Assembly: GCF_000744115.1 (NCBI RefSeq)
Contig: NZ_JQLG01000004.1
Coordinates: 62,001 to 126,000 of the forward strand
Source of the DNA: Carnobacterium alterfunditum DSM 5972
Lineage (GTDB): Bacteria > Bacillota > Bacilli > Lactobacillales > Carnobacteriaceae
Direction: 5' to 3'
DNA length: 64,000 nt
Shown here: positions 7,506-59,735 of the stretch, piece by piece
How positions within the stretch are numbered: the first letter of the stretch is position 1
Layout of the letters: each line of letters begins with the position of its first letter
The notes under the pieces: model-generated
What the model was told of the DNA's origin: nothing
What the model saw: the letters and a program-made list of their open reading frames with translations, nothing else
The model's database searches: none
Translations under genes and position numbers: made by a program

Positions 7506-7570
7506 AGACTCTACATATCTGAATCATAAAAATTTTGGTTTAATACACCAATATTTTTATCAGACAACGT

Positions 7571-21115: not shown

Positions 21116-21158
21116 AGACCACATTTATTCTTGAGAATAAATGTGGTCTGTTTTTTTG
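21116..21158 (+). terminator. Terminator after the Mga-like gene
   Basis: AGACCACATTTATTC pairs with GAATAAATGTGGTCT across a short TTGA loop, then seven T. It begins within a few bases of the stop codon. Confidence 0.92.
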
Positions 21159-21160
21159 TA

Positions 21161-21400
21161 TTGATAGATCAGTTGGATCACTTACTTGAAATTTCTGGCG
21201 GAATAGGGTTGCTTGTAGCCTAAAATGAAGCACTATGGGCAAATAACGCCCACGTGTATCATGTTTGTAAGCTGCTAAAGCAGCAACAACCATGACAACT
21301 TCCTCTTTAGGCTTTAGGCGTTCCCACGGCCCCACAAGCACAACCGTCAATTCCAGAAGAAATTCCTTTTAAAACACCAATACCATTTGACGTAGAATCA
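21161..21400 (-). repeat. Interspersed palindromic repeat, copy E (class II core)
   Basis: The outer arms are like the other copies (GCGGAATAGGGTTGCTTGTA at 21199; ATTCCAGAAGAAATT near 21350), with the class II core. Two hairpins are visible: TGGGC (21236-21240) with GCCCA (21248-21252), and GCTGC (21271-21275) with GCAGC (21280-21284). They occupy the same places as the sequence-different hairpins of copy A. It lies between convergent genes. Confidence 0.88.
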
Positions 21401-27284: not shown

Positions 27285-27366
27285 TGGTAATGGCGGTAGT
27301 GGTGATTCAAGAGAAATTTCTTCTGGAATGAATGAATTCTACTTGTAGAGAGTCGTCGTACAGCAC
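27285..27366 (+). repeat. Interspersed repeat, truncated copy F1
   Basis: The left end and left arm (GAGAAATTTCTTCTGGAATG, 27311-27330) are followed by a diverged stretch TTCTACTTGTAGAGAG, and the element then stops. It lies directly before the full copy F2 in the same orientation, so this looks like a decayed tandem partner. Confidence 0.7.
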
Positions 27367-27397: not shown

Positions 27398-27625
27398 ACT
27401 GGTATTCGTATTCTAATAGAAATTTCTTCTGGAATATACGGGTTTGCTTGTGGAGAGCCATGGTACCGCCTGAAGCCTTTAGGTCTTCTTGGCTTTCAAG
27501 CCTCAAACAACACGTAATCGCTGAAGCGTTAACGGCTTGTAATTCGCATTGAATACTTTACACGGCTACAAGCAATCCCTATTCCGACAGCAATTTCAAG
27601 TACGTGGTTGAACCAATCAACCAAT
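27398..27625 (+). repeat. Interspersed palindromic repeat, copy F2 (class I core)
   Basis: Both arms are present: TTCTTCTGGAATATACGGG at 27424 and GGCTACAAGCAATCCCTATT near 27564. The class I core has a weaker stem (ACAA/TTGT) than other copies. It lies between the rbsR 5' end and the 3' end of the DHFR-like gene. Confidence 0.88.
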
Positions 27626-27644
27626 ATAAAGAAGGATAAAATAG

Positions 27645-28224: not shown

Positions 28225-29133
28225 TTACTCCTTTTCAAGCTGCCCTTCGTAAGCTTTTTTCAATTCAGCGATATTAATTTTTTTCATTGGAAGAAAGGCT
28301 TGTGTCACACGATCCAATTGTACTCGGTCTGTCGTATTCATCATGTCATTCATGATCGTAGGCGAAATTTGCCATGAAAATCCGTACTTATCTTTCAACC
28401 AGCCACATTGCTCAGCTTCTGGTACAAAAGATAATTTTTCCCAAAAGTAATCAATTTCTTCTTGCGTATCGCAATTCACTAAAAATGAAATGGCTTCAGT
28501 AAACGTAAACCCATGATCAATGACACTATCCATCGCTACAAAATTTTGACCTTCTAAATTGAACATTCCGTGCATTACTTTTCCACCCTGACCTTGTTCA
28601 TCATCCTCGCTGTAATAACTCAACCCGTCGATGGCGGCATTCGCAAAGACCGAAGTATAAAATTCTATCGCCTCTTCTGCTTTGCCATACTGTTCACCTG
28701 TAAATAACATAGTTGGCGTAATTTTTTGCGAAATCAATTGATCTGGCAAATATATAATTTGCCAAGAAAGGCCATACTTATCTTCTGTCCAACCATATTT
28801 CTCACTAAATGGATAAGTATCTAGTGGCATGAGAATTGAACCATTTTTGGATAGTTGTTTCCATAAATGATTTACTTCTGCCAAAGTGTTACAAATGACT
28901 TGCAGCGAAACAGATGGATTTAACTTAAAAGTTGGACCAGCAGAAATGGACATAAAAGTTTGGCCTGCCAGAGTGAACACGATACTTTCTGCAGATCCAG
29001 AAGGCGTATCAGAGGGGGTGTCATTAAGGGTTACTACGCTGTCGATAGAAGAATGATCAAATAACTTTATATAAAATTCCGCAGCTTCAAGAGCTTCTTT
29101 ATCATACCAAAGATGTGTAACAATTTTTTGCAT
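28225..29133 (-). CDS. Tandem VOC/PhnB-like protein
   Basis: The 302-residue protein contains two PhnB-like (3-demethylubiquinone-9 methyltransferase-like, glyoxalase fold) units, about residues 1-140 and 145-285. Both show the pattern of a F-Y/W-x-x-F opening, SIVFTLAGQTFMSIS or MFNLEGQNFVAMDS, and a terminal DKYGLSWQI / DKYGFSWQI. Function is unknown; members are often called metalloproteins related to the bleomycin-resistance fold. It pairs with the DHFR-like gene and is a paralogue of the gene at 29536. Confidence 0.85.
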   Translation of the reverse strand: MQKIVTHLWYDKEALEAAEFYIKLFDHSSIDSVVTLNDTPSDTPSGSAESIVFTLAGQTFMSISAGPTFKLNPSVSLQVICNTLAEVNHLWKQLSKNGSILMPLDTYPFSEKYGWTEDKYGLSWQIIYLPDQLISQKITPTMLFTGEQYGKAEEAIEFYTSVFANAAIDGLSYYSEDDEQGQGGKVMHGMFNLEGQNFVAMDSVIDHGFTFTEAISFLVNCDTQEEIDYFWEKLSFVPEAEQCGWLKDKYGFSWQISPTIMNDMMNTTDRVQLDRVTQAFLPMKKINIAELKKAYEGQLEKE

Positions 29134-29200: not shown

Positions 29201-29483
29201 GTTCAGTTTGGGTAACTCAAAGTCGTTTTTCATTTGAGTTGGTGCAACGAGCTTCAGTTCGAGTAACTCATTAGACGCTTTTCATTTGAGTTAGTGCAAC
29301 GAGCCTTAGTTCGAGTAACTCAAGGTTGATTTTCCATTTGAGTAGCCGCAACGAGCGCTAGTTCGAGCAACTCATTAGACACTTTCCCTTTGAGTCAGTG
29401 CAACGAGCCTTTGTTCGAGTAACTCATTAGACGCTTTTAATTCGAGTTAGGGCAACGAGCTTCAGTTAGACTAAATCATTGCT
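29201..29483 (-). repeat. 52-bp tandem repeat array, locus 1
   Basis: About five to six head-to-tail units of about 52 bp are seen. On the minus strand each begins near GAGTTACTCGAACTGAAGCT and continues GTTGCACTAACTCAAATG with variation. The same family forms the larger array at 51962-52580 on the other strand. It lies between two paralogous VOC genes, directly after a relic of the DHFR-like gene. Confidence 0.85.
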
Positions 29484-29535: not shown

Positions 29536-30417
29536 TTACCCTTCATAGATTCTTTTCAATTCGGCAATATCAAGCTTTTTCATTTTAAGGAAGGCTTCTG
29601 TTACTCGCTTTAGTTGCTCAGGATTTTTTGTTGCCATCATATCTTTTATGATCGTAGGAATAATTTGCCAAGACACGCCATATTTATCTTTTAACCAGCC
29701 GTAATGTTCTGATTCAGGTACAGTAGATAATTTTTCCCAATAGTGGTCGATTTCCTCTTGCGTATCGCAATAGATCATAAAGGAAATAGCTTCGTTAAAT
29801 GTAAAGTCGTGTGCTGCCCCGCCATCCATCGCTACAAAAAATAGTCCTTCTAGCTCAAACAACCCATACATAACTGTGCCAGCTTGATTCTGTTCATCAT
29901 CCTCACCATAATAATGAAGGACATCAATTGTTGAATTGAAAAATACCGAAGTATAAAACGTCATTGCTTCTTTTGCTTTGCCGCACTGTTCATCGGAAAA
30001 GAGCAAGGTCGGGACAATTTTTTGCGTAATGAATTGATTAGGTAGATATAAAATTTGCCAAGAAAGACCGTACTTATCTTCTGTCCAACCGTATTTATCA
30101 CTAAATGCGTTGGCACCGAGTGGCATCAAAATGTTGCCTCCGTCAGATAGTTCTTTCCATAAATATTCTGCTTCCTTTGCAGTATCGCAAAAGACTTGAA
30201 AAGAAACAGCTGGTGTAAACTTAAAGGAAGATTCGGCAGAAATAGCCATAAACGATTGGCCAGCTAATATAAATTTGACGGTTTCTGCTGCTCCTGAAGG
30301 AATATCATAAATAGTCACATGAGTGTTGAGCGAATGAATGTCAAATAATGACGAGTAGAATTCGGCTGCTTTTATTGCTTCTTGATCGAACCAGAAATGC
30401 GGAATAATTTTTTGCAT
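29536..30417 (-). CDS. Tandem VOC/PhnB-like protein, paralogue
   Basis: The 293-residue protein is alignable end to end with the 28225-29133 product. It has two PhnB-like units, each closing with DKYGLSWQI or DKYGVSWQI, and shared stretches such as SFQVFCDTAKEAEYLWKELS and LKDKYG. It lacks the short TPSD insertion near residue 40 of its paralogue. Together with the relic downstream it shows that a VOC-DHFR gene pair was duplicated in tandem. Function unknown. Confidence 0.85.
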   Translation of the reverse strand: MQKIIPHFWFDQEAIKAAEFYSSLFDIHSLNTHVTIYDIPSGAAETVKFILAGQSFMAISAESSFKFTPAVSFQVFCDTAKEAEYLWKELSDGGNILMPLGANAFSDKYGWTEDKYGLSWQILYLPNQFITQKIVPTLLFSDEQCGKAKEAMTFYTSVFFNSTIDVLHYYGEDDEQNQAGTVMYGLFELEGLFFVAMDGGAAHDFTFNEAISFMIYCDTQEEIDHYWEKLSTVPESEHYGWLKDKYGVSWQIIPTIIKDMMATKNPEQLKRVTEAFLKMKKLDIAELKRIYEG

Positions 30418-32476: not shown

Positions 32477-32613
32477 TCTGTATATTAAATTTCTAACGGA
32501 ATTAATGAGTTTGCTTATAATAAGCCATGGTAACGCTTGAAGCCTGAAAAGAAAGTCTTCCAGCTTTCAAGCCTCAAACAGACCATAATCGCTGAAGCTC
32601 TAACGCCCTAGAA
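32477..32613 (+). repeat. Interspersed repeat, truncated copy G (class I core)
   Basis: The left arm (AAATTTCTAACGGAATTAAT) and class I core (CTTGAAGCCTGAAAAGAAAG, TTTCAAGCCTCAAACA) are present. The right arm is missing, and homology stops at the 3' end of the surface-protein gene. The core stem GCTTGAAG/CTTCCAGC keeps an A-T pair where copy D has a C-G pair. Confidence 0.8.
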
Positions 32614-34056
32614 TTTAAATATGAATCCATTGATGATCACAAATGCGGCAAGAACAATAAATAATGAACCTTTCATAAATCCGATTGCTTCAGTTTTTTT
32701 GTCAGTTTCAGCTTCTTCATTAGCTGATGATCTGTCTACCGCTTGAGCAGCTTCTTCGATTGCTGACGTTTTTTCACTTGTCATGCTATTTACATCTTCC
32801 GCTTTTTGTTCATCAATAAGTGAGCTGTTCTCCACTCCCACTGCTGCTGATACGGTTTCTTTACTCTCGATAGCATCCGACTCTGCTAACAAACTAAGGG
32901 GTTCTTCTTCTGATGTGCCACTTTCCGCTTCATTCTTGCTTGGCATCTCTTTATCTATTTCTTCATCTATCGTTTCGGCATCTTCTTCTACTATAACTTC
33001 TTGTACAGTGAAGTTCCCTATCGAAAGATTCGTTTGTAGCATCTTTTCTTTTGCTTCTATTCTTGTTTCCAGTTGTTTTATTTCTGCTTTTAATAGATCG
33101 ATTTTACTTTGATCGTCTGTCTCTTCTAATTCTTCTGCCGCCTGTTCTTCTAGCAGTTGATTGTTTAATTCAGCTAGTTGTTTTTGCATTTTCGCTTGAT
33201 CCAATTCGATTACGAACTGGTTATACAATGAAAATGAATCGCCTTTGCTATCAACAGCACTCAGATACTCTATCACCCAATCGCCTATTAACTGGTTTGC
33301 GATCGAAGGCAACTTTCCTTCATAGGCTTTAGTTTCTTCGTTAAACGTTAAGGAGAGCGTCAATTGTTGGCCCGCTGTCTCTCCATCGAGAGATAATAAG
33401 CGGTAAGCAACCGTTACATTTGTCAATAAATCATCTTTAGCTGAATGCAAACTAAATCGAAGCTTTTCACCAACTTTAACCATATTTTGTTCAACTTTGA
33501 TGGATGAGAGATCAAATAAGGCGGCAGGGTGCGGGATCACTTCAAAATCACCTTTTTTTAGTACTGATTCTTCAGTTATCAAGGCCCTCGTTTCTAATAT
33601 ACTCGAGACATTATTCTCTTCGACCCCAACCGCCTTTGTCATCGACCAAATCCCGATATCTGTTTCTTTATTTGTTTCAAGTCGGCCTTCATATCGTTTT
33701 GTTTCACTATCATAGGTCAAGACAACTGTTGTTTCTGCCTCTGTGTTGCTCGAAGAATAACTTAACCTAATTGTTTCAAAAATTTGATCTTCTGGCAGCA
33801 TCAATTTGAAGGCAATTTGCTCGCCAGCGTGTGCTTTTTTAGGCTCGATCATCAGCTTGTCACTAACGGTTATTTCATTCGTTGGAACAGGCTCCACATT
33901 CTCTTCAAGTTCTCTGATTTCATCTGATGCAGCACTCTCTGATCCTACACTTGATTCTATCTCATCATTTGGTGTTGCTGAGACAGATTGGCTGTCGAAA
34001 TTGGCAAGCAGTATCAAACTCATCGCCAGCAGTAGGTGTATTCCTTTTGATTTCAT
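32608..34056 (-). CDS. Large secreted or membrane-anchored surface protein
   Basis: No known family was recognised for this 482-residue protein. An N-terminal signal peptide (LLLAMSLILLANFDSQSVSA) is followed by two similar beta-type units of about 100 aa (roughly 66-165 and 178-285). Both have a G-E-x-(I/L)-x-F opening and end in a YEG(R/K)L ... IG(I/D)W block. A coiled coil follows (about 288-345, MQKQLAELNNQLLEEQAAEE). An acidic Ser/Glu-rich stretch (345-455) and a C-terminal membrane helix (GSLFIVLAAFVIINGFIF) complete it. There is no LPxTG motif. The stop codon abuts repeat remnant G, so the original C-terminus may have been changed. Confidence 0.75.
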   Translation of the reverse strand: MKSKGIHLLLAMSLILLANFDSQSVSATPNDEIESSVGSESAASDEIRELEENVEPVPTNEITVSDKLMIEPKKAHAGEQIAFKLMLPEDQIFETIRLSYSSSNTEAETTVVLTYDSETKRYEGRLETNKETDIGIWSMTKAVGVEENNVSSILETRALITEESVLKKGDFEVIPHPAALFDLSSIKVEQNMVKVGEKLRFSLHSAKDDLLTNVTVAYRLLSLDGETAGQQLTLSLTFNEETKAYEGKLPSIANQLIGDWVIEYLSAVDSKGDSFSLYNQFVIELDQAKMQKQLAELNNQLLEEQAAEELEETDDQSKIDLLKAEIKQLETRIEAKEKMLQTNLSIGNFTVQEVIVEEDAETIDEEIDKEMPSKNEAESGTSEEEPLSLLAESDAIESKETVSAAVGVENSSLIDEQKAEDVNSMTSEKTSAIEEAAQAVDRSSANEEAETDKKTEAIGFMKGSLFIVLAAFVIINGFIFKF

Positions 34057-40020: not shown

Positions 40021-40224
40021 TAAATGAAATTTATGGAGGAATAGGATTTGCTTGTAGCCGTGTAAAGGATTCAATGCGAATTACAGAGCGTTGACGCTTC
40101 AGCGATTACGCCCTGTTTGAGGCTTGAAAGCCTTAAGACTGTGCGTTTCAGGCTTCAGGCGCTCCCATGGCTCCACAAGCAAATCCGTCTATTCCAGAAG
40201 AAATTTCGTGTCATCAATACTATC
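40021..40224 (-). repeat. Interspersed palindromic repeat, copy H (class I core)
   Basis: Both arms are present (GGAGGAATAGGATTTGCTTG and CACAAGCAAATCCGTCTATT). The core stem ACAGAGCG (40083-40090) pairs with CGCCCTGT (40109-40116) with one mismatch. The element fills the gap between the malic enzyme gene and the convergent 96-aa gene. It continues into TGTCATCAATAC, which also borders copy J. Confidence 0.9.
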
Positions 40225-41536: not shown

Positions 41537-41549
41537 CGACGATCTTATT

Positions 41550-42002
41550 TTAGAATTCTTCCTCTTCGTCATCTTGATCATCTTGATCAGAATATTCAGC
41601 TGACCATGTCACGATCCCTCGCTGAGCTTCGTTGATTACAGAAGCGACTGCGTCTTGGATGGAAGAACCAATCATTTGTTGATTGATCGCATCAATAAAC
41701 ATTGGTAAATTGACACCTGCGATCACGTGGACTTTCTTTTGTTGTTCCGCTGTAAGTGAATTCACAGCCAAAACAGCTTGGTTATACAGACTAGCGCCCG
41801 CTAGATCCACGAAAATAATGACACCATCATTTTGATCAACTGCTTTGATTGCTTTTAAAAATTTTCCATTTAAATCTTGGACATTATCTTCTTGAAACAG
41901 GTTTAGCGTTTTAATATTTTCGGTGCTGCCAATGATCAAATCGGCCGCGCTGACAATACCATTACTCATCTCTCCATGTGTAGCAACGATGATCCCAATC
42001 AT
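41550..42002 (-). CDS. PTS mannose-family EIIA component
   Basis: The 150-residue cytoplasmic EIIA domain has the phosphorylated His in IIVATHGEMSNGIV (His near residue 10) and the conserved GVIIFVDLAGASLYNQAVLAV near residue 60. Its C-terminus is unusually acidic (DQDDQDDEEEEF). EIIC at 44378 also ends in an Asp run, so acidic tails mark two components of this PTS. It starts inside the stop of the upstream gene (four-base overlap). Confidence 0.88.
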   Translation of the reverse strand: MIGIIVATHGEMSNGIVSAADLIIGSTENIKTLNLFQEDNVQDLNGKFLKAIKAVDQNDGVIIFVDLAGASLYNQAVLAVNSLTAEQQKKVHVIAGVNLPMFIDAINQQMIGSSIQDAVASVINEAQRGIVTWSAEYSDQDDQDDEEEEF

Positions 42003-42904
42003 TTATTATTCCTCCCGACTAGCTGTTTCAAATAAAGTAATACTTCATTCATATTCGTATCACTCAGTTGATTCTGCTTCAAATCGTCTTTACTCAATGT
42101 AAAACGATCTTTTTCTTTGGTGGCGCTGATGACGTACACTAAGCGATTATTTGCAATCTCAGACGAAACAACTGTCTCTATTGAGTTGCTAGAAATGGCT
42201 AATTTACGATTACTCATCACTTGGTATAATTTTTTTCTTGAACCAATACTATCTAACATATAGACAGTAGCATTGCTTTGGCCCATGACTTTTTCTAAAC
42301 CGGCATTATTCGTACAACCGGCATCTAGAAAAGCAAATGCTAGTTTTTTATTTCTAAATTGTTTCGTGCTATAAAGCTGCACTAGAACAGAAGATGTATT
42401 TCGAATCAAATTGTGCTTATTCGGCCAGCCTCTAGCTACGCTCTTTAAAAAGAAGAAATAGAGAACATAGAATAGAATGCACAGTAGCGAAACCGGGCTT
42501 ATCAAAGCATTGGTTTGGAATACCGGCATAGCCACTTGCCATGTGAACACTAACCCTACGATGATGTATAAGATAGCCGAAAGAAAAATGAATCTCATCG
42601 TATTTTTCTTTCGATCTGCTACATCAAAAAATTGATACGGACCAAGATGAGCTGCTGGAGTATCATAATAAGTGCAAATAATTGTATCTGCTTTTTTTAT
42701 GTCTCCAACATAAAGATTATTATATTCTACAAGATCTTTCTCATTCAATTTAAAGGTCTCTAGCTCAACATCTGACCTGAATTGACGAATGTCAGCTGTC
42801 AAACTTTCTAAAAAACGATCTTTTCGTTTTCGCGTATAACGCTTCCCAAAAATGGAATGATAGCGAACATACCAATCTTCTAATTGTTCATCTTGTTCCA
42901 TCAA
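41999..42904 (-). CDS. Membrane protein with degenerate M28-peptidase-like features, within PTS operon
   Basis: A 301-residue protein not part of a standard PTS. Two hydrophobic helices (about 103-125 and 131-152) split a cytoplasmic-type domain. IICTYYDTPAAHLGP near residue 77 resembles the M28 aminopeptidase strand that holds the first zinc ligand. KLAFAFLDAGCTNNAGLEKV near 193 resembles the M28 Asp-Glu-Glu segment with the catalytic Glu lost. So it may be a peptidase-fold pseudoenzyme. It overlaps the EIIA gene by four bases and lies 16 bp after EIIB, so it is clearly co-translated with the PTS. Function unknown; the M28 relation is by eye. Confidence 0.6.
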   Translation of the reverse strand: MMEQDEQLEDWYVRYHSIFGKRYTRKRKDRFLESLTADIRQFRSDVELETFKLNEKDLVEYNNLYVGDIKKADTIICTYYDTPAAHLGPYQFFDVADRKKNTMRFIFLSAILYIIVGLVFTWQVAMPVFQTNALISPVSLLCILFYVLYFFFLKSVARGWPNKHNLIRNTSSVLVQLYSTKQFRNKKLAFAFLDAGCTNNAGLEKVMGQSNATVYMLDSIGSRKKLYQVMSNRKLAISSNSIETVVSSEIANNRLVYVISATKEKDRFTLSKDDLKQNQLSDTNMNEVLLYLKQLVGRNNK

Positions 42905-42920
42905 TTATCATCCTAACTCA

Positions 42921-43424
42921 TTATAGATTAAATTTTGCCAAAACTTCTTTCAAATTAGTTCTTGGAGCAGATGGTGTTGCTTGGAAATAGATATCTTCCA
43001 CATGGTACTTTTCATCAAGCTCTTTTAATTTTAACGCATCTTCTCTATTTAGGTAAACGGATTTTGTAACAAAAATATCCTCTTCCCCTTTTTGAGCGAT
43101 GCCGCCGATATTTATTTCTTTCATTGGAACACCATGTTTCACCAATTCATAAATAACATCAACTGTTTTGGCGATCAAGATACAGCTGTATTCTTTGAAC
43201 TCGAATTCATCCCAATAGTATTTGCATTTTTCTAGAGTCATAACGACCGTTTTCTTACCTGTACGTCCTCCAGCACTTTTATACAAACTTTTCATAAATT
43301 TATCTTTTGCTACAATATCATCCACAACGAATAATGAATTTACTCCGTCACGCCCAGAAAGTGTCAGCATGACTTGTCCATGGATCAAACGCTCATCTAT
43401 ACGCGCTAAATTTACTACTCCCAT
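42921..43424 (-). CDS. PTS mannose-family EIIB component
   Basis: About 167 aa with the typical EIIB-Man N-terminus VNLARIDERLIHGQVMLTL, whose His is the phosphorylation site. The later part, EINIGGIAQKGEEDIFVTKSVYL near residue 115, is also family-typical. The ATG at 43424 has AAGGAAG nine bases upstream; the TTG three codons earlier is less likely. Confidence 0.9.
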   Translation of the reverse strand: MGVVNLARIDERLIHGQVMLTLSGRDGVNSLFVVDDIVAKDKFMKSLYKSAGGRTGKKTVVMTLEKCKYYWDEFEFKEYSCILIAKTVDVIYELVKHGVPMKEINIGGIAQKGEEDIFVTKSVYLNREDALKLKELDEKYHVEDIYFQATPSAPRTNLKEVLAKFNL

Positions 43425-43468
43425 TGATTTCAACTTCCTTTCTTATGCTTGTTTCGCTTCTTAATTGA

Positions 43469-44347
43469 TTATAAAATTCCTACTGCTGCTAATACGATCA
43501 AGATCAATGTTAACCATAACAGTGCTCTCGTAACTTTTAATCCCTTCTTGACATAGTACCAATAAATACCCATAACGGTTGCAAGTGGTAGTATACCTGG
43601 CAAGATAGTGTCAAGCGTTTCTTGAATGATAAACGGCCTTCCAGAGATCATGAATTCCAAGGAAGAGGAGACCGTTACATAGTTTCCGGCTAGGATCCCC
43701 ATCATGAACAACCCTAAAATAGACAACAATTCGATCGCATTTTGAACTCCTGCACTTTCCATTAGTCCTGTAGCACTTTTACCCATGACGAACCCTTGAC
43801 GAGCAAAGAATAAACCGATCAACACTTGATAAGTGGCAAAAGCGATGAATGGGAATAACGCTCCAGCAGCTGATCCATTTTGAGCCCAAGGAATAGCGAT
43901 AGCAATAAAAATATATTGGATCGTTCCTGAGTCGATCGAGTCACCAATACCAGATAAGGCACCCATTAGACCGGCCTTAGTATTGTACATTAAGTCATCT
44001 GTCATAACAATTTCTTCGTTGTTTTGTTCTTGTTTGGCACGTTCTTGTTCCATTGAAGACATTAAACCGGTTAAGATCCCGCCACCCCATGTTAATTGGG
44101 TATTGAAGAACAATAATTGTCTTTTATATGCTGCACGTAAAGCATCATCGTCTTTGTATAGTTTTCGCAAAACAGGCATCATACCGTATAGTAAAGATGG
44201 TGCAAGGTAACGCTCAAATGAATGAGGGATCTCATTTGCAAAGTGCCATCTTAAGTAAGCTATCGAAACATCCTTGTTTGTCAGTTCTCCTAGTTCCATT
44301 TCTTTAGTGCTCTCAGTAAGCGTTGCTTGTTGTGTGTCAGTCGTCAT
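43469..44347 (-). CDS. PTS mannose-family EIID component
   Basis: The 292-residue EIID has an N-terminal amphipathic part (LTNKDVSIAYLRWHFANEIPHSFERY), the family motif GLMGALSGIGDSIDSGTIQYIFIAIAIP near residue 128, and membrane spans in the C-terminal half. It forms the membrane sugar channel with EIIC, 30 bp upstream. Confidence 0.92.
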   Translation of the reverse strand: MTTDTQQATLTESTKEMELGELTNKDVSIAYLRWHFANEIPHSFERYLAPSLLYGMMPVLRKLYKDDDALRAAYKRQLLFFNTQLTWGGGILTGLMSSMEQERAKQEQNNEEIVMTDDLMYNTKAGLMGALSGIGDSIDSGTIQYIFIAIAIPWAQNGSAAGALFPFIAFATYQVLIGLFFARQGFVMGKSATGLMESAGVQNAIELLSILGLFMMGILAGNYVTVSSSLEFMISGRPFIIQETLDTILPGILPLATVMGIYWYYVKKGLKVTRALLWLTLILIVLAAVGIL

Positions 44348-44377
44348 TTTTAGTGCTCCTTTCGCTCATCGTTTTTT

Positions 44378-45208
44378 TTAGAAATCATCGTCGTCATCAT
44401 CATCGGGTCCGTCAACATTATTTGTGCCGTTTGCCGAAGATGCATTTGCAGTATTGTTGCGACTAAGTACGAATATTGCTGCAATCAATGTCCCTACAAT
44501 TGCATAAGTTACCATTGTAATGCCTATATCCTTGAAGACTACACTGATAAAGTAAGCTAGTAAGAAAAATACCATATAATCGCGACGTCCAATAACATAA
44601 ATGGTAGTAGCGATCCCGATAGCTGCTAATCCGCCACCAACAACTTCAAGGATGTGTAAGAATACGGTCCCTTCCAAAGTTGCGATAACATCCGCAATGA
44701 CTGGGGCTCCCCAATACAAAGCACCGAAAACTAATGGTACGAATAAGATGAAAGAAGCAATGACTGGATAAAAAACGATTGAACGAGCAATGGCACCGTG
44801 GTCCAATTTTTCGACCGCTCTATCTGTATATCTTCCAATAAATGTATTGATAAAGAAACGGAATTGGTAGAGATAAGATCCTAACAAACCGACTGGAACG
44901 GCGACCGCGATTGCAGCCTCAGGCGAAAGATCTCCCAACAAAGCTACTGACACAGCAACGGCTGCAGCAATCGATGGTTCAGAAGGCATTGTACCCCCTG
45001 GAGAAAATACCCCCATATAAATCAATTGGATCGCTGCAGTGATGATCATTGCACCTGCAACATCTCCCATTACGATACCAACTATTAAACCGGTCATTAA
45101 TGGAGAAAAACGTAGTGTTAACGTAGCCCCACCTAAAAATGACCTTGACATGATTGCAGCTACCCAAAGTGCGATAACGAGACTTTGCCATATTGATAAT
45201 GTTTCCAT
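44378..45208 (-). CDS. PTS mannose-family EIIC component
   Basis: The 276-residue EIIC has six or more membrane spans. It has the conserved QLIYMGVFSPGGTMPSEPSIAAAVAVSVALLG segment near residue 62, then GLLGSYLYQFRFFINTF. It ends in an unusual stretch of Asp (GPDDDDDDDF). AGGAGGTAATAAGAA precedes the ATG. Confidence 0.92.
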   Translation of the reverse strand: METLSIWQSLVIALWVAAIMSRSFLGGATLTLRFSPLMTGLIVGIVMGDVAGAMIITAAIQLIYMGVFSPGGTMPSEPSIAAAVAVSVALLGDLSPEAAIAVAVPVGLLGSYLYQFRFFINTFIGRYTDRAVEKLDHGAIARSIVFYPVIASFILFVPLVFGALYWGAPVIADVIATLEGTVFLHILEVVGGGLAAIGIATTIYVIGRRDYMVFFLLAYFISVVFKDIGITMVTYAIVGTLIAAIFVLSRNNTANASSANGTNNVDGPDDDDDDDF

Positions 45209-45222
45209 TTCTTATTACCTCC

Positions 45223-46323
45223 TTATTTATTGATAAAATTTTCTAAATCGATCAGTGTTGTTGTTAATCGTTCTTCATTTATTTGCAACGGCAACAGATG
45301 AACTTTTTGTTTGCTGTCGATCAATTGGACTATGTTTTTTAACGTACTTTCAGACATCGGATACACACCCATCTCTGTTAACGATTTGGGTAACTGCAGC
45401 GATTCATAAAATGGGATCAATTCATTGATCGTAGACCATTTTTTTTCTAATGCTAGTTGATAAAAGATACCATATGCTACCTTTTCACCGTGTAAGTATT
45501 CATGCACCTCTGGTAGATAAGCCGAGATCGCATCATGGATCGCATGGGCCGCCGTATTTCGCGCATATTTATCGCCCAAGCCGCCAACCAAACCAGCGAT
45601 GGCAAAAATGATCTCTGAAATATGAATAAATTCAGCTGAGATCGTTTTTGCTTCCATATCCATGATCGCTTTTTCAGCTTCTGCCAGCACTTTTTCTTTG
45701 CACATACGAGCAGCAAAACGTGCCATCTGTGGAAAAGGTTCGTCGTTAAACGCTTCTTGCTCTAAAATCAAGTCTGACTCATACCATTTTGCTAGCGTAT
45801 CAGCAATTCCAGCAATAAAGTAATTGACCGGTGAATCGATCACTAGTGCTGGATCGGTGATCAGGAAAGCGGCTTGTCGCTTGACATGCTCGGATTTCCC
45901 TTCTGCTAAACCATTGTCATGATACATGACCGAGAGCGGTGTCCATGGTGCACAATTGCTAGCCATTGTTGGAACGAGGCCGAATTGCGTATTAGTTAAA
46001 TGACTAGCATATAAAACTAAATCGGATAATTTACCTCCGCCGACTCCGATAACAAAATCGATTTTATTTTTTTCAATAATTTCTGTAATACGGTGACACT
46101 CGTTATAACTGCATTCTCCATTATATTGTTCATAGATCATTTTTTTGTCTAGCTGCATCACCTTAGTTAGGTAAGGTTTTGCTTTTTCCCAAGATATGCT
46201 GCCATGCACGATCAATATACGACTAGCATCATATTCTTGAAGTAGTTCTGGAATCAGGTCTATCGATCCCTCACTATAACAGTAAAACTGCGGCCCTCCC
46301 TTCACATTTAAATCGGTAAGCAT
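45223..46323 (-). CDS. Glycerol-dehydrogenase-like (GldA family) oxidoreductase
   Basis: A 366-residue member of the iron-containing/GldA-type alcohol dehydrogenase superfamily. It has the NAD-binding FVIGVGGGKLSDLVLYAS near residue 90 and PTMASNCAPWTPLSVMY near 118. A metal-site Asp in GIADTLAKWYES lies near 168, with His residues in NTAAHAIHDAI near 258 and EYLHGEKVAYGIF near 275. It sits between EIIC and the 2-hydroxyacid dehydrogenase, so it probably reduces or oxidises the imported polyol or keto sugar acid. Exact substrate unknown. Confidence 0.82.
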   Translation of the reverse strand: MLTDLNVKGGPQFYCYSEGSIDLIPELLQEYDASRILIVHGSISWEKAKPYLTKVMQLDKKMIYEQYNGECSYNECHRITEIIEKNKIDFVIGVGGGKLSDLVLYASHLTNTQFGLVPTMASNCAPWTPLSVMYHDNGLAEGKSEHVKRQAAFLITDPALVIDSPVNYFIAGIADTLAKWYESDLILEQEAFNDEPFPQMARFAARMCKEKVLAEAEKAIMDMEAKTISAEFIHISEIIFAIAGLVGGLGDKYARNTAAHAIHDAISAYLPEVHEYLHGEKVAYGIFYQLALEKKWSTINELIPFYESLQLPKSLTEMGVYPMSESTLKNIVQLIDSKQKVHLLPLQINEERLTTTLIDLENFINK

Positions 46324-46338
46324 TCACAAATCTCCTTC

Positions 46339-47340
46339 CTAATTCAAGTAAGAACTACTGCTCTGTACGGCTCTATTTGGAAGAAGACCTTGTGTGATCC
46401 GCTCACAATCGGCAGCACATTTATTTCCCATTTCTTCAAGACATTCCATCGTGTAAGCCGAAGTATGCGGAGTGATGATAACGCTGTCAAAATCAAGGTA
46501 AGAATGATCTGCACGACCGGGTTCAACTTCCAGTACATCGGTCGCAAATCCAGCAACTTTACCTATTTCTAATGCATGGATCAACGCGTCTTCTTCGATC
46601 AATGCTCCTCTAGCCGTATTAGATAAGTAGACATTATCTTTCATTTTAGTAAACTCTTCCGTAGAGAGCATATGGTAGTTATCGTCTGTTAGACTTGCAC
46701 ATATACAGATCACATCTGCTCTTTCTAAAAGCTCATCTAGTGCTACTTTTCTTGCACCAAATGCTTCAATTTCCACTTTTTCTTTATTGGGATCGTATGC
46801 CAGCACTTCGCAACGGAAACCATAATGAAGGATCTCAGCAACGCGGCTGCCAATATTTCCGATTCCGATAACACCTACTGTTTTCCCACCAAGAGCATGA
46901 CCGACAAATTGAGCTCGTTCTTCCCATTTGTCTTGCACGACGCTCTGATAAGCTAAGCTGGTTTTTCTCATGACATTCAATAAATTGGTCACATTGTTTT
47001 CGGCAACTGCATCCCGTTCGATCAAAGCCGGTACGATCGATACGATCGTGTTGTGTTGCTTAGCTGCCACTAGATCGACATTGTTAAAACCGATGCCATG
47101 TCTTGTGATCAATTTTAATTCATCTTTATGATCAAAGAACGTTTGTGTGAAAAAAGGTGTCACGCTGGCAATGATCATATTGAATCCTTTTAATTCTTCG
47201 GCTAACGTTTTTCCATCGATAGCACTATCAAAAGTAAATTTTTGCACCTCTCCTATTTGTTGCAAACGTTTTAAATGGTCTGGAAAAATTTTTCCAAAAC
47301 TACTTGAATTGACGATTGCGATTTTGTTGTGTCCACTCAT
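46339..47340 (-). CDS. D-isomer-specific 2-hydroxyacid dehydrogenase
   Basis: A 333-residue NAD-dependent enzyme. The NAD-binding motif GKTVGVIGIGNIGSRVAEIL is near residue 150. The catalytic Arg lies in NTARGALIEEDAL near 237, Glu in VLEVEPGRADHSYLDF near 265, and His in VIITPHTSAYTME near 288. In this setting a role as 2-keto-(6-phospho)gluconate reductase (GhrB/TkrA-like) would feed the next enzyme, 6-phosphogluconate dehydrogenase. That substrate is inferred from the gene set. Confidence 0.85.
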   Translation of the reverse strand: MSGHNKIAIVNSSSFGKIFPDHLKRLQQIGEVQKFTFDSAIDGKTLAEELKGFNMIIASVTPFFTQTFFDHKDELKLITRHGIGFNNVDLVAAKQHNTIVSIVPALIERDAVAENNVTNLLNVMRKTSLAYQSVVQDKWEERAQFVGHALGGKTVGVIGIGNIGSRVAEILHYGFRCEVLAYDPNKEKVEIEAFGARKVALDELLERADVICICASLTDDNYHMLSTEEFTKMKDNVYLSNTARGALIEEDALIHALEIGKVAGFATDVLEVEPGRADHSYLDFDSVIITPHTSAYTMECLEEMGNKCAADCERITQGLLPNRAVQSSSSYLN

Positions 47341-47342
47341 TT

Positions 47343-48248
47343 TTAGCGTTCCCCATTTCTCGTAACCTTATGACCGCCGAATTGATTGCGCATAGTTGCT
47401 ACAACTTTTGCCGAAAAGCTATCATCGATTTTCGATACGTTACGAGCGAATAATGAACTTGCAATAACCGGAACAGGGATATTTAAATCGAGCGCCTCAA
47501 CGACTGTCCATTTTCCTTCGCCACTGACATCTACGACACCTTTGATATCGTCCAATTTAGGATCACTCTTGAAACTTTCTTCGGTCAGTTCCATCAGCCA
47601 TGAGCGGATAACCGATCCATGATTCCAAACGGAAGCTACTTTTTCGAAATCGTAATCGTATCTACCAGCATTTAAGATATCGAATCCTTCACCAACAGCT
47701 TGCATCATGCCGTATTCGATGCCATTGTGAACCATTTTCAAGTAATGTCCGCTACCGGATTCTCCTGTATAAAGATAACCTTGATCACAAGCTAGTGCAG
47801 CAAAAACTGCTTCTGTTTCTTCGAAAACGTCAGCATCTCCGCCAACCATCAGACAAGCTCCAGTTTGAGCCCCTTCCATTCCACCTGATGTACCGCAATC
47901 TAGAAAACCGATTCCTTTTTCTTTAGCTAGTTCATAATTTTTCACACTATTCTTGAAATACGAATTTCCTCCGTCTATCAAAATGTCACCTGGGTGCAAT
48001 TGATTGCTAAGTGTTTCCACTAATGCATTGGTAATTTCTCCTGCAGGTGTACTTAAAAAGATGATTTTTTTTTCTTCTAAGCTTTCTAAAAATTCTTCTT
48101 GTGAGTTGGCAATTGCTAAATGACTTTCAGAAGCTTTTTGGCGTGCTGGGATCGAAACATCGTAACCCACAACAGCGATATTACTTTCTTGTAAATTCAA
48201 AGCTAAATTCAAACCCATTTTTCCTAAACCTATAATACCTACTTTCAA
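47343..48248 (-). CDS. gnd-like: 6-phosphogluconate dehydrogenase-like protein, short type (YqeC/GntZ-like)
   Basis: About 301 aa. It has the N-terminal NAD-binding motif KVGIIGLGKMGLNLALNL, DGGNSYFKNSV near residue 92, and FLDCGTSGGMEGAQTGACLMVGG near 115. The catalytic HYLKMVHNGIEYGMMQAVGEG is near 168. The short form lacks the C-terminal half of standard 6PGDH and is the NAD-preferring, decarboxylating type. I place the start at a TTG (48248) because GAGGAGG lies seven bases upstream and family proteins begin MKVGIIG. First gene of the PTS operon, divergent from the RpiR regulator. Confidence 0.88.
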   Translation of the reverse strand: MKVGIIGLGKMGLNLALNLQESNIAVVGYDVSIPARQKASESHLAIANSQEEFLESLEEKKIIFLSTPAGEITNALVETLSNQLHPGDILIDGGNSYFKNSVKNYELAKEKGIGFLDCGTSGGMEGAQTGACLMVGGDADVFEETEAVFAALACDQGYLYTGESGSGHYLKMVHNGIEYGMMQAVGEGFDILNAGRYDYDFEKVASVWNHGSVIRSWLMELTEESFKSDPKLDDIKGVVDVSGEGKWTVVEALDLNIPVPVIASSLFARNVSKIDDSFSAKVVATMRNQFGGHKVTRNGER

Positions 48249-48294
48249 GTCTTCTCCTCCTCTTTGCTCTTCTCTTTCATAACCCAATTATAAC

Positions 48295-48341
48295 AAATAT
48301 TTTTTATTTGTAAAGGGCTTTCATAAAAAATATTTTTTACT
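48295..48341. promoter_or_regulatory. Direct repeats in the divergent promoter region
   Basis: AAATATTTTTTATT (48295-48308) and AAATATTTTTTACT (48328-48341) are near-identical, 33 bp apart, in the 136-bp gap between the PTS operon and the RpiR gene. They are candidate binding sites for the RpiR regulator. A TATACT -10 box for the regulator lies at about 48353. Confidence 0.45.
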
Positions 48342-48384
48342 CAAAAAATGTAGTATACTATTATTAAAGAGGAGTTGAACTTAT

Positions 48385-49263
48385 ATGTCCTATAATTATT
48401 TAGAAAAATTACTACGACCTTATATGAAAGGTTTTAACGATACTGAGAACATCATCGCCGACCATTTCATTAAACTCGGCAATGAAGTAGTCAATAAAAC
48501 GCTTTCTAATTTAGCAGATGACACCGGACTTTCTGAAGCTACTATTTTCAAATTTGTTAAAAAAATCGGTTTTGACGGCTTCCCTAATTTCAAAATTTCG
48601 GTGGCTTCCAATTTTCGAACGATGGAAGAACGAAAAAACGAGTTAGCGGTCTTTTCTGACATCAGTAAAGAAGATTCTTCGTACACGATCGCCCAAAAGT
48701 TGGTTTATTCAAATAAACTCGCACTTGATAACTTAGGTGAATCACTTGATGAAAAGAAAATCAATCAAGCATTAGATTTAATGTATGATTCAAAAACCCT
48801 ACACTTTTTTGGCCAAGGGGCTTCCTCCGTGATCGCATTAGACAGCTACCACAAATTTTTGCGCACAGGGGTCTACTGCAATTACATTTCTGATTACCAT
48901 ATGCAACTGAGCTACGCTACAAAGCTTGGCCCAAATGATTGTGTCTTTTTATTTTCCCACTCTGGAGAGACGATCGAAACGATTGAAGTGGCGAAAATTT
49001 TGTGCGCCAATCATGTCAAAATTATTGTCTTGACCGGTAACCACTACACGGATTTAGTGAAACTTTCGACTGTCGCGTTTATTGTCGATTCAGAAGAATC
49101 CGTTTTCCAATCAGAGACACTCACCTCACGAATTCTTTATATGACGATCATTGATATTCTTTATGTGGCCTTGATGTATCATGATGAAGCCAAAAATAAA
49201 GAGTCACTAGAGAAGATCCGCAAAGCACTAGTTATTACCAAAAAAAGAAGGCCATTGCGATGA
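48385..49263 (+). CDS. RpiR-family regulator of the PTS sugar-acid locus
   Basis: The 292-residue protein has an N-terminal helix-turn-helix (NKTLSNLADDTGLSEATIFKFVKKIGFDGFPNFK) and a SIS domain with HFFGQGASSVIALDSYHKF near residue 135 and VFLFSHSGETIETIEVAK near 190. SIS domains bind phosphosugars, so the effector is probably the phosphorylated PTS product. The gene is divergent from the operon and overlaps the downstream phosphatase gene by four bases (ATGA). Confidence 0.88.
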   Translation: MSYNYLEKLLRPYMKGFNDTENIIADHFIKLGNEVVNKTLSNLADDTGLSEATIFKFVKKIGFDGFPNFKISVASNFRTMEERKNELAVFSDISKEDSSYTIAQKLVYSNKLALDNLGESLDEKKINQALDLMYDSKTLHFFGQGASSVIALDSYHKFLRTGVYCNYISDYHMQLSYATKLGPNDCVFLFSHSGETIETIEVAKILCANHVKIIVLTGNHYTDLVKLSTVAFIVDSEESVFQSETLTSRILYMTIIDILYVALMYHDEAKNKESLEKIRKALVITKKRRPLR

Positions 49264-50153
49264 CCATTAAAGCAATCGTATGCGATATGGACGGGACGCT
49301 GCTTACTTCTGATCATACTATAGCCCCTAAAACGTTCAGTAAATTGATGGAGCTGCAAACTAAAGGCGTCCAATTGATTCTGGCCAGCGGGCGTAGCTAT
49401 ATCCGCTTGTTGCCTGATGCTTTAAAATTGCAGATGGATAAAAATGCTGGCTTGATGATCGATGTCAACGGTACGTCTATCTATCACGTCGAAACCGCTA
49501 AACGCGACCGGATCGGGCTATTAGAAGGATCTTTCATTACTGAACTCAATCAGTTCTTCTCGCTCTTTACAGTGGAATTGCAATACAGTCAAGATGATAC
49601 GATCTTTACTTATTTACCCGATGAGATTTACACCATTAAACAAAATATCCGCGGGGAAATGCGTCTGCCAGATGATTACCCTTGGATGGGCGGGATGTAT
49701 GGCTGGTTATGCGACACTCGTGACGGTTACCCTAATCAACATATGATTCGCAGTTTGGCAAATACGCCAACTTCTTGCAATAAGATATCCGTCGTCCAAG
49801 AGCCTGCTTATATGTCCTTTGTTCGTGACACATTAAAAAATCATCCGATCTACGAGCAATATGAATACGTTTTCTCAGACGAACGTAAGATGGAGATCAC
49901 GAATAAAGCTATCACCAAAGGAAATGCTTTGGATCGCATTATGGCAAAACAAAACATCCAGCATGATGAAATGGTCGTGTTTGGCGATAGTGAAAACGAC
50001 ATCTCGATGTTCAAAAATAAAAAATATTCGGTTGCTATGGGGAATGCACTTGCCTCCGCAAAGCAACAAGCTAATTACACCACCGATAGTCATAACCATG
50101 AAGGGGTCTATCATATGTTGGTTCGTTTAGAAGATCAAGGACTCTTCGAATGA
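49260..50153 (+). CDS. Cof-type HAD phosphatase
   Basis: The 297-residue protein has the HAD motifs CDMDGTLLTSD near residue 8, LASGRSYIRL near 45, and VFGDSENDISMFKNKKYSVAMGNA near 240. Coupled translation with the RpiR regulator suggests it removes phosphate from an intermediate of the same pathway, protecting against phosphosugar build-up. Substrate unknown. Confidence 0.88.
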   Translation: MTIKAIVCDMDGTLLTSDHTIAPKTFSKLMELQTKGVQLILASGRSYIRLLPDALKLQMDKNAGLMIDVNGTSIYHVETAKRDRIGLLEGSFITELNQFFSLFTVELQYSQDDTIFTYLPDEIYTIKQNIRGEMRLPDDYPWMGGMYGWLCDTRDGYPNQHMIRSLANTPTSCNKISVVQEPAYMSFVRDTLKNHPIYEQYEYVFSDERKMEITNKAITKGNALDRIMAKQNIQHDEMVVFGDSENDISMFKNKKYSVAMGNALASAKQQANYTTDSHNHEGVYHMLVRLEDQGLFE

Positions 50154-50180: not shown

Positions 50181-50427
50181 TTAGTATTAGTGCAATAAAA
50201 TAAAATTCCTTCTGGAATGGACGGGTTTGCTTGTGGAGAGCCATGAGAGCGCCTGAAGCCTCTCGTCTTACAGGCTTTCAAGCCTCAAACAGAGCATAAT
50301 CGCTAAGGCTCTAACGCTCTGTAATTCGCATTGAATCTTTGACACGGCTACAAGCAACCCCTATTCCTCCAGAAATTTGGTGTCATCAATTTATCTAACA
50401 TAAGAATAAAAAGTTGTATAATTTTTG
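50181..50427 (+). repeat. Interspersed palindromic repeat, copy I (class I core)
   Basis: Full copy. Left arm TTCTGGAATGGACGGGTTTG at 50210, right arm CTACAAGCAACCCCTATTCC at 50349. The core stem ACAGAGC (50289-50295) pairs with GCTCTGT (50316-50322). It is in tandem with copy J, offset about 259 bp. Confidence 0.9.
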
Positions 50428-50661
50428 GTTCTACGTCAAATGGTGTGGATATTTAAAAATAAAATTTCTTCTGGAATGGATGGGTTTGCTTGTGGAAAGC
50501 CATGAGAGCGCCTGAAGCCTTTGGTGTTATAGGCTTTCAAGCCTCAAACAGAGCGTAATCGCTAGGCTCTAACGCTCTGTAATTCGCATTGAATCTTCGA
50601 CACGGCTACAAGCAACCCCTATTCCGACAGAAATTTGGTGTCATCAATACTATAAAATCGT
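50428..50661 (+). repeat. Interspersed palindromic repeat, copy J (class I core)
   Basis: Full copy with a perfect core stem ACAGAGCG (50548-50555) / CGCTCTGT (50573-50580). It begins with GGTTCTACGTCAAATGGTG, the same left end as copies D and E. It is immediately followed by a broken duplicate of the 40.3-kb gene end. Confidence 0.9.
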
Positions 50662-50765: not shown

Positions 50766-50925
50766 TATTACCGAAGAAAATGCGTTAAATTTCATTATGA
50801 AATGAAAAAACATCTAGCATGATGAAATACCTTAATAAATCAATTCCACATCCATAGATATGATTATTAAAATTTATAGATACTTCTTCCTGTTTGCGTA
50901 CTCTAATAAAGAGGAGGCGAAGATT

Positions 50926-51840
50926 ATGATAGTAGTCAAAAATCGAAATAAATCGAGTTACTTGTGTGCTATAGAAGCTTTGGATAAACGAATGGTACTG
51001 CCTGATGAAGAAGCTCTTCATTTATTGAATATGCAAAAAGGATTTAAAGGAGAGGTCTTATTTGATTCGCTGTTGGAAGAATTTTTAGACGTGGACGCAT
51101 TGATCCTGAATGACTTGATGTTCACAGAAAAAGGAAGTACGTTTCAAGTCGATTCATTGATTCTGACCGGAGAAAAAGTTTTATTGTTTGAGGTAAAAAA
51201 TTATGAAGGGAATTTTCAATTCAAAGCGCATCATCTCTTGACATCTTCCGGCAAAGAAATCGGTAACCCATTAAATCAATTGGATGATACTTCTATCAAG
51301 ATGCGGCAACTTTTGAGCAAATGGAATGTCAATCTGACGTTTGATCCTACACTCATTTTTGTGAATCCTGCTTTCACGCTGTACAATGCGCCAGCTGGCA
51401 GTCCAATCATTTTTCCTACACAAATCAAGGAACACTTTTCCCGAATGAATCGGAATGTCTTACCACTATCGAAAAGGCATCACCATTTTGCGGATAAAAT
51501 GATAGCAGAAAATCAGGAAGAAGCGGCTTTTCAACGGAAGTTACCGAGTTACACTTACGATCTACTCAAAAAGGGTCTATGGTGTATCGAATGTGACTCT
51601 CCCGATTTATCAAATACTCAACGGACTTGTTCTTGCAAAGCTTGCGGATCTAAAGCAACTATCGAAGATACGGTTTCGCGTCAAATAAAGGATTTCAAAC
51701 TACTGTTTCCTGATTCTAAAGTAACTACCGCTGCTATGTTTGACTGGTTAGGTTCCACTATTTCAATGGAAAGAATCAGGAAGATATTATTAAAAAATCA
51801 CAAAACTTGCGGAGCCACGTATGGTTCCTATTATGAATAA
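50926..51840 (+). CDS. NERD-domain protein with zinc-ribbon-like segment
   Basis: The 304-residue protein has a NERD (nuclease-related) domain at about residues 30-145: GFKGEVLFDSLLEEFL, DALILNDLMF, QVDSLILTGEKVLLFEVKNYEGNF. The Asp and the Glu-x-Lys are the nuclease-like core. A cysteine cluster (WCIECD...CSCKACGS near residue 220) suggests a zinc ribbon, and a helical C-terminal part follows. The ATG at 50926 is chosen because GAGGAGG lies eight bases upstream. NERD proteins are thought to act on DNA or be linked to restriction-type functions, but the role is unproven. Confidence 0.8.
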   Translation: MIVVKNRNKSSYLCAIEALDKRMVLPDEEALHLLNMQKGFKGEVLFDSLLEEFLDVDALILNDLMFTEKGSTFQVDSLILTGEKVLLFEVKNYEGNFQFKAHHLLTSSGKEIGNPLNQLDDTSIKMRQLLSKWNVNLTFDPTLIFVNPAFTLYNAPAGSPIIFPTQIKEHFSRMNRNVLPLSKRHHHFADKMIAENQEEAAFQRKLPSYTYDLLKKGLWCIECDSPDLSNTQRTCSCKACGSKATIEDTVSRQIKDFKLLFPDSKVTTAAMFDWLGSTISMERIRKILLKNHKTCGATYGSYYE

Positions 51841-51961: not shown

Positions 51962-52580
51962 TGAGTTACCCGAACTGCGGCTAGTTGCTGCAACTCAAAT
52001 GAAAAGTGACTAATGAGTTACTCGAACTGAAGCTAGTTGCTGCAACTCAAATAAAAAACGACTAGTGAGTTACTCGAACTGAAGCTAGTTGCCGCAACTC
52101 AAATGAAAAGAGCCTTTGAGCTACTCGAACTGAAGCTAGTTACTGCTACTCAAATGAAAAGTGACTAATGAGTTGCACGAACTGAGGCTAGTTACCACTA
52201 CTCAAATGAAAAGCGACCAATGAGTTGCTCGAACTGAGGCTAGTTGCTGCAACTCAAATGAAAAGCGACCAATGAGTTACTCGAACTGAAGCTAGTTGCT
52301 GCTACTCAAATGAAAAGTGACTAATGAGTTGCACGAACTGAGGCTAGTTACTGCTACTCAAATGAAAAACGACTAGTGAGTTACTCGAACCACGGCTAGT
52401 TACCGCAACTCAAATGAAAAGCGACCAATGAGTTACTCGAACTGAGGCTAGTTACCACTACTCAAATGAAAAACGCCTAATGAATTACTCGAACTGAGGC
52501 TAGTTGCCTCTACTCAATCGGAAAGTGACTAATGAGTTACTCGAACTGAAGCTAGTTACTCTTTCCCAAATAAAATACGC
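51962..52580 (+). repeat. 52-bp tandem repeat array, locus 2 (about 12 units)
   Basis: Twelve head-to-tail units with a 52-bp period. The first part of each is close to GAGTTACTCGAACTGAAGCT, then AGTTGCTGCAACTCAAATGA, then AAAGTGACTAAT. Units differ at a few positions, and the last is incomplete. Many contain GAGTTGC and GCAACTC as inverted repeats. It lies between the convergent NERD and SGNH genes and is related to the array at 29201-29483 on the opposite strand. No reading frame is supported. Confidence 0.92.
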
Positions 52581-52584: not shown

Positions 52585-52623
52585 AAAAGAAAGAGAGCCT
52601 CAAGAATGAAGATTCTTGAGGCT
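52585..52623 (-). terminator. Terminator of the SGNH hydrolase gene
   Basis: A perfect 12-bp stem AGCCTCAAGAAT / ATTCTTGAGGCT with a four-base loop, followed on the minus strand by a CTCTTTCTTTTC tail. It lies 12 bp after the stop. Confidence 0.82.
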
Positions 52624-52634
52624 TTCTTAGTTTA

Positions 52635-53432
52635 TTAATGAAGTTCTTTCACTGGTACATCCAACCGCTCTTTCAATAATTCGAACCACAACTTATAGCC
52701 TTCTCCATTTGGATGGACTTCGTCAGACAGAACATCTCCAATCAATAAATGACGTTCTTCCATTCTAGTTTGCATTAATTGATAAATATCAATAAACGGC
52801 CACTGCTGCTCTTTAACATATTCAGCAATTTCATTATTGTATTGGTCATAGGTAACTCGACTGCCCGTTAAATATACATCATTATAAATAGTAGGATTTG
52901 CAGTTTGCAAAACAACCAATGTATCTGGCAGCTCCGTTTTGAACGTGTCCATGATCCAGTGGATGTCTGCTTTTGTTTGGTCAATATCCCTTTGCGGATA
53001 GCGGTTATTGTTGATCAAACACAATTCAAAAATAATAATATCCGGATCGTCTTTAATGACTGACCTAATTTTATGCCTTGAAATCAGATTTGCTGTACTA
53101 TAGCCGCTGTAACCATGATTGATTACTTTAGCGTTTATCCCAGCCATCTTGTCAAGATCCGTTTCCAGTAAATTACCCCACACGGATTGTGCTTCAGTCG
53201 CACCTTTTCCATAGGTTACACTGCTGCCTAGAACAACGATAGTTACTTCACCATCGCGTTCCGTTACAAATTTTGAACGCTCCACTAAACTTTCATGTTT
53301 AAAAGTATCCGATAATTTATAGGTTTCATTCATCTGAGCCAAGGTTCTATTTTCTTTAGTAAACTTGAAGAAGAAAATAAAAACCGCTACCAACACTATG
53401 ACTATCCCAATTTTCAAATTAGCTCGTTTCAT
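52635..53432 (-). CDS. Secreted or membrane-anchored SGNH/GDSL hydrolase
   Basis: The 265-residue protein has an N-terminal membrane helix (IGIVIVLVAVFIFFFKF, about 8-25). The SGNH block I is VVLGSSVTYGKGA (Ser near residue 70). Block III-like LCLINNNRYPQRD with Asn lies near 140, and the catalytic Asp/His pair is in SDEVHPNGEGYKLW near 240. It is therefore an extracytoplasmic esterase or lipase-like enzyme, possibly acting on cell-wall or polysaccharide acyl groups. Substrate unknown. Confidence 0.85.
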   Translation of the reverse strand: MKRANLKIGIVIVLVAVFIFFFKFTKENRTLAQMNETYKLSDTFKHESLVERSKFVTERDGEVTIVVLGSSVTYGKGATEAQSVWGNLLETDLDKMAGINAKVINHGYSGYSTANLISRHKIRSVIKDDPDIIIFELCLINNNRYPQRDIDQTKADIHWIMDTFKTELPDTLVVLQTANPTIYNDVYLTGSRVTYDQYNNEIAEYVKEQQWPFIDIYQLMQTRMEERHLLIGDVLSDEVHPNGEGYKLWFELLKERLDVPVKELH

Positions 53433-54984: not shown

Positions 54985-55160
54985 CTTTTAAATGCACAGG
55001 TGAATGGTTTTTTTGTCTTACTCATCCGTGAAAACACACTTCATGAACAAGTGCATATCCTTTTAAATCACACTTATCCGTGCAAACATACTTCATGAAC
55101 AAGTGCACCTTTTTTTGAATCCCACTCATCTGTGCAAGCACACTTCATGAACAAGTGTAG
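54985..55160. repeat. Short tandem repeat of about 52 bp (three units plus a partial)
   Basis: Three units (about 55018, 55070 and 55122) share CACACTTCATGAACAAGTGC after an ACTCATCCGTGCAAA-like lead. Each contains CACTT..AAGTG as an inverted repeat and the palindrome TTCATGAA. The unit differs in sequence from the 29- and 52-kb arrays. It lies upstream of the phosphatase gene and next to repeat remnant L. Confidence 0.75.
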
Positions 55161-55205
55161 CCGGTTTATAAACAAACCCGTACATTCCAGAAGAAATTTA
55201 TTATT
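55155..55205 (-). repeat. Interspersed repeat, arm-only remnant L
   Basis: AAACAAACCCGTACATTCCA followed by GAAGAAATTT is the conserved outer arm, with no core or second arm. It is fused to the end of the short tandem repeat. Confidence 0.7.
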
Positions 55206-59517: not shown

Positions 59518-59735
59518 TATTAGTACAACGATGTGAAATTTCTTCTGGAATGGACAGGCTTGCTTGTAGAGAGCCGTGAGATCGCCTTAAGCCTAAAAGT
59601 CATAGTCTTAAGGCTTTCAAGCTTCAAACAACGTTTACACGCTAAAGCGTTAAAACGGTGTAATTCACATTGAATCTTCTACACGGCTACAAGCAACCCC
59701 TATTCCTCCAGAAATCCCAGGTTACTGATTAGATA
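59518..59735 (+). repeat. Interspersed palindromic repeat, copy M (class I core)
   Basis: Both arms are present. The two core stems are strong and have their own sequences: GCCTTAAG / CTTAAGGC (about 59584-59614) and ACAACGTTT (59628-59636) / AAACGGTGT (59653-59661, one mismatch). It lies between the glpK 5' end and the Mga-like gene 3' end. Confidence 0.9.

Follow-up and report, generated by a model that had tools for sequence, protein, structure and literature searches.

The tandem repeats at two loci of the analysed DNA belong to a dispersed tandem repeat specific to the genus Carnobacterium. The reading that we prefer, with a probability of about 0.45, is that unequal exchange turns over this genus-specific repeat, whose form is kept by a putative protein that reads the dyad in each unit. 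The window, a stretch of 64,000 nucleotides (G000:C4:62001-126000), is part of a 2.62-Mb assembly and contains the following features around the two arrays.

28225..29133, minus strand: gene for a 3-dmu-9_3-mt/glyoxalase-fold protein, 302 aa, left of array B
29202..29480, minus strand: array B, same family as array A, about 5.4 units
29536..30417, minus strand: paralogue of the gene left of array B, 293 aa, right of array B
50860..51840, plus strand: gene for a NERD-domain protein, 326 aa, left of array A
51962..52580, plus strand: array A, 12 units in tandem, 51-52 bp each, with a truncated or diverged 3' end in the last
52591..52628, no strand assigned: two-way terminator-like hairpin stem, by consensus match only, separating array A from the GDSL hydrolase gene
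52635..53432, minus strand: gene for a GDSL-type lipase/acylhydrolase, 265 aa, right of array A

Each unit of array A reads TGAGTT...GAAC-N8-GTT...ACTCAAA or a variant of it, and direct reading of array B gave five full units and one partial. TRF returned 11.5 copies of 52 bp for array A (51962-52557, score 800) and 5.4 copies for array B (29202-29480, score 302) on the opposite strand, so that the unit numbers and opposite orientation given in the initial annotation are confirmed by both routes. Across the 17 aligned window units the columns are on average 84% identical and 18 of them do not vary, and the inverted GAGTT/AACTC described previously was found in the units. Divergence specific to each locus, claimed in the same place, holds for the bases before GTT (GCTA versus GCTC, in 12/12 and 5/5 gapless units), but GCTAGTTGC is not present in all units, since array A has either GTTGC or GTTAC there. 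Both arrays are intergenic and non-coding, as had been stated: the NERD-domain and GDSL hydrolase genes converge on array A, and array B separates a glyoxalase-fold gene from its paralogue, both of them on one strand.

A sequence model built from the 17 units found matches in 6/6 Carnobacterium genomes and in 0/12 genomes from other genera of the same family; with this model, trained on these same units, single units reach E = 1e-17 genome-wide. A 20-base pattern, allowing two mismatches at most, matched 5 of 59 relatives, and these five belong to a single genus. After iteration on the fetched stretches, the total stands at 71 arrays of 1-13 units, with at least 329 units in six genomes, these unit counts being lower bounds from genome scans capped at 150 scored candidates per genome. 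The window's genome, G000, has 18 of the arrays found, G001, G002 and G003 have 7 each, G004 has 23 and G005 has 9. The ‘two distant loci’ of the initial annotation, which had proposed a count of further loci, are therefore real but incomplete, being 2 of the 18. Nor is the family absent elsewhere with units diverging at random, the outcome named there as counter-evidence.

All 18 arrays of G000 are flanked by genes, one of them overlapping a 127-aa ORF of doubtful reality, and 12 stretches of this genome (216 kb), sampled away from the known arrays, contained no unit. A scan with the core sequence matched a named Carnobacterium jeotgali MS3 record; two further matches, in unrelated bacteria, look like chance. 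Array A had no match in 72,556 plasmid and 50,697 phage records and an exact 19-base pattern had none in viral contigs; on this absence from the collections, a plasmid or phage iteron, and a plasmid or phage origin, were rejected. No published description of the repeat was found in the accessible parts of the literature searched, including PMC10589936, PMC5341603 and PMC5016993, a body of text that takes in few subscription journals.

The unit is close to five helical turns long (51-52 bp). Of 258 spacings between neighbours, 251 measure 51 or 52 bp, with 51 prevailing in G001, G002, G003 and G005 and 52 in G000 and G004. Adjacent units differ at 7.6 of 46 positions, yet their length is steady (unit statistics cover 320 of the 329 units, 9 with indels having been dropped). 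The core is an imperfect inverted repeat of ~40 bp, about TTTGAGTT-N4/5-GAAC-N8-GTT-N6-ACTCAAA, whose dyad axis falls between positions 17 and 18 (sum 35), and the rest of the unit is a variable linker of ~11 bp. In a weighted column profile this axis scores 5.37, against a mean of 0.09 (sd 1.24) over all tested axes and 2.05 for the next; a weaker direct similarity appears at a shift of 25 (3.39, mean -0.23, sd 1.43). Symmetry is incomplete, because most units have mismatches at pairs 9-26, 10-25 and 6-29.

Two symmetric pairs change together. Among the 71 array consensuses, pair 13-22 is C.G in 46, T.A in 13, C.A in 7 and T.G in 5, and pair 7-28 is A.T in 20, C.G in 18, G.C in 1 and not Watson-Crick in the other 32. 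The Watson-Crick excess over expectation is 15.9 and 15.4, respectively, and the maximum among 734 off-axis pairs (13.5) lies below both. This coordinated change is mostly between clades: at 7-28, C.G is commonest in G000 and G004 and A.T in G001, G002 and G003, while at 13-22 G003 is mostly T.A. Coordinated change between arrays within a genome is only suggestive, since 331 and 334 of 5000 within-genome shuffles of the array consensuses did as well; a unit-level shuffle gave 0 of 1000, although the units counted there are related. One-sided changes at 13-22 comprise 26 T.G and 28 C.A units. Because the paired switches occur without an excess of G.T over A.C, a DNA dyad, as would form a dimer's site, appears to fit better than an RNA hairpin.

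Over 46 columns, units of the same array show an identity of 0.82, compared with 0.69 for units from different arrays of a genome and 0.67 for units from different genomes. Of the 313 units of multi-unit arrays, 192 have their nearest unit in their own array (chance 0.017). Agreement with the consensus is lower for edge units (0.869, n = 82) than for inner units (0.933, n = 177). This pattern of identity and edge decay is the signature of turnover inside arrays, and agrees with the local concerted evolution suggested in the initial annotation. A CRISPR array was rejected, as there are no unrelated spacers: the entire 51-52-bp unit recurs, and identity within arrays is 0.70 even at the variable columns.

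Sites were compared between species using blastn output from an all-against-all comparison. Ten groups, accounting for 26 of the 71 arrays, have both flanking genes in common, and the array pairs that share both flanks are in the same orientation in 21 cases and opposite in none. At one orthologous site the species carry 12, 13, 3 and 1 units. Some of the 23 orthologous pairs compared top their background and others do not (e.g., G000 L082/G004 L130 and G002 L104/G004 L135). In close species pairs the flanking intergenic DNA is still alignable, so conservation of the arrays is unexceptional there; it stands out against the flanks only in some distant pairs, mostly with G005.

Arrays stand at the 3' end of the GDSL gene in 5/6 species and on the 5' side of the 302-aa glyoxalase-fold gene in 5/6; G003 has no array at either site, and the neighbouring sequence differs at both. 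Orthologues of the NERD gene adjoin an array in G001, G002 and G004. In G004 the NERD gene keeps 2 units and the GDSL gene 5, and the ~19 kb between them (L184, G004:C2:1035101-1055000) include a block matching window positions 41545-50151. The array that is continuous in the window is thus split in G004 by a rearrangement, each edge of which carries array sequence. A further array lies between purH and purD in G000 (L090, 4303-4588), with the same site occupied in G003 and G004 (L112 and L124). Next to a gene that we take, from its sequence, to be glmS, 6/6 species share the gene order but only G000 has an array, of 11 units, soon after a terminator-like hairpin. No clear target duplication was seen by eye at the glmS array; G004 has a different repeat at this site.

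No common theme was seen among the flanking genes examined. One constant neighbour gene was rejected, as the largest cluster comprises 10 unannotated ORFs whose position and strand are not fixed. Because copy number ranges from 1 to 13 at one site and the flanking genes show no theme, no locus-level function is seen.

Under the reading that we prefer, slippage or unequal exchange would expand and contract the arrays, homogenising inner units while the edges decay. Occasionally an array would arise at a new intergenic site, or a rearrangement would split an existing one. A putative symmetric (dimeric) DNA-binding protein of the genus would read the core and so hold it constant, and the fixed unit length may stack its sites on one helix face; such a protein might organise the chromosome, or might be an enzyme by which the repeat spreads. 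The protein-binding role entertained in the initial annotation is supported indirectly, by one dyad axis, two coordinated pairs and a tight unit length, while the binder itself is a candidate deduced from these sequence features. Counting against the protein model are the imperfect dyad, the coordinated change that is mostly between clades, the range of 1 to 13 copies at one site, the lack of a theme among the flanking genes and the fact that tandem duplication alone would preserve the period.

A strong rival to a protein-shaped repeat, which we hold to be quite possible though at clearly worse than even odds, is a VNTR-like satellite, neutral or selfish, to which no protein binds. Such a satellite would spread to safe places between genes and persist by slippage and recombination, its inverted repeat serving only hairpin or single-stranded DNA steps of spread. 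The wide variation in copy number at orthologous sites, the lineage-specific gain at glmS, the thematically mixed neighbours and the decayed edges would all be expected of it, as would the choice of gaps. Arrays occupy convergent gaps in 24 of 69 cases, compared with 18 of 138 other gaps (Fisher p 0.0004), and divergent gaps in 9 of 69, compared with 37 of 138 (p 0.03); these counts cover 69 of the 71 arrays, two having no flanking gene in the fetched stretch, with comparison gaps from the same loci. However, identity between genomes is 0.83 at dyad columns versus 0.46 at the others (in column sets hand-picked after conservation had been seen), unit length is nearly invariant, and single units fold weakly as single-stranded DNA (z -0.3 to -2.8 for four family units), all of which sits poorly with a satellite free of any reader.

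That the phased dyad arrays form a genus-specific chromosome-organising system read by a putative dimeric protein seems unlikely. For the five genomes in which dnaA shares a contig with the arrays, the replichore upstream of dnaA carries 50 of 62 arrays, and 46 of the 62 are oriented towards the origin; both figures are inflated by orthologous loci, since the loci are not independent. G005, whose arrays are spread across several contigs, was excluded, and array positions and strands were entered by hand.

It is still less probable that the arrays are transcribed as a structured repeat RNA, either a sponge or a regulatory RNA. The plus-strand RNA of array A outdoes all of 20 shuffles in folding (z -3.97) and one array sits between purH and purD, but the opposite strand reaches z -1.89, the predicted fold lacks one hairpin per unit, pair 13-22 has no wobble preference, and the codirectional gaps show no strand preference (16 arrays with the gene strand, 20 against). 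A known RNA family was rejected: nothing in the window reached the gathering score of an Rfam 15 family, and in five loci the arrays themselves had no match even at E up to 1. That the arrays encode a repeat protein or peptide has a negligible chance, for although an ORF of 106-221 aa crosses some arrays in genomes with 51-bp units, the unit of G000 and G004 is mostly 52 bp, a length that three does not divide and that breaks the frame every time, and no ORF of at least 100 aa overlaps array A or B.

The preferred reading, a turned-over repeat shaped by a dyad-reading protein, may be set beside known systems. MIRU-VNTR loci of Mycobacterium tuberculosis are intergenic tandem repeats with variable copy number at many loci. 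The Carnobacterium repeat is like them in having tandem units of similar size, tens of bp long, between genes at many places in G000 and elsewhere, but differs in its restriction to one genus, the marked dyad in each unit and the gain of arrays between species. REP/BIME elements are dispersed intergenic imperfect palindromes with mismatched stems and associated RAYT transposases; Carnobacterium units are likewise dispersed imperfect palindromes between genes, but stand head-to-tail at a fixed 51-52-bp pitch. Iteron or parS-like arrays are phased protein-binding repeats, and the dyads described here also recur at near whole-turn spacing; unlike them, they occur chromosome-wide with 1 to 13 copies at one site, and their binder is putative.

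The 18 arrays found in G000 and the 7 to 23 in the five other genomes are candidate VNTR typing loci for Carnobacterium. They also offer a natural six-species comparison in which the symmetric core is kept while the linker and the number of copies drift. Should a protein read the dyad, the clade switches at two symmetric positions would predict recognition residues that differ between species.

Other repeats were observed in the same DNA. A dispersed repeat of ~230-264 bp has about ten copies plus fragments in the 64-kb window:

7005-7268, 7269-7506, 27402-27639, 32487-32615, 50203-50378, 50443-50636 and 59535-59729: copies
8550-8728, 21153-21383 and 40025-40207, minus strand: copies
143-203, 27300-27352 and 55168-55202: fragments

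By its ends it is a candidate ISL3-type MITE. Copies occur in the fetched loci of G001, G002, G004 and G005, with none seen in those of G003; the repeat adjoins several arrays and occupies the glmS site in G004. A second 52-bp tandem array, at 55020-55157, has 2.7 copies of an unrelated unit, ACTCATCCGTGCAAACACACTTCATGAACAAGTGC..., and was found in 2 of 59 genomes; the other of the two is G005, where it also lies near this hydrolase gene. An unrelated tandem array of period 51 lies between two large ORFs in L081 (8132-8270; G000:C4:270631-270769), and its unit has inverted ends, GGACAAA...TTTGTCC.
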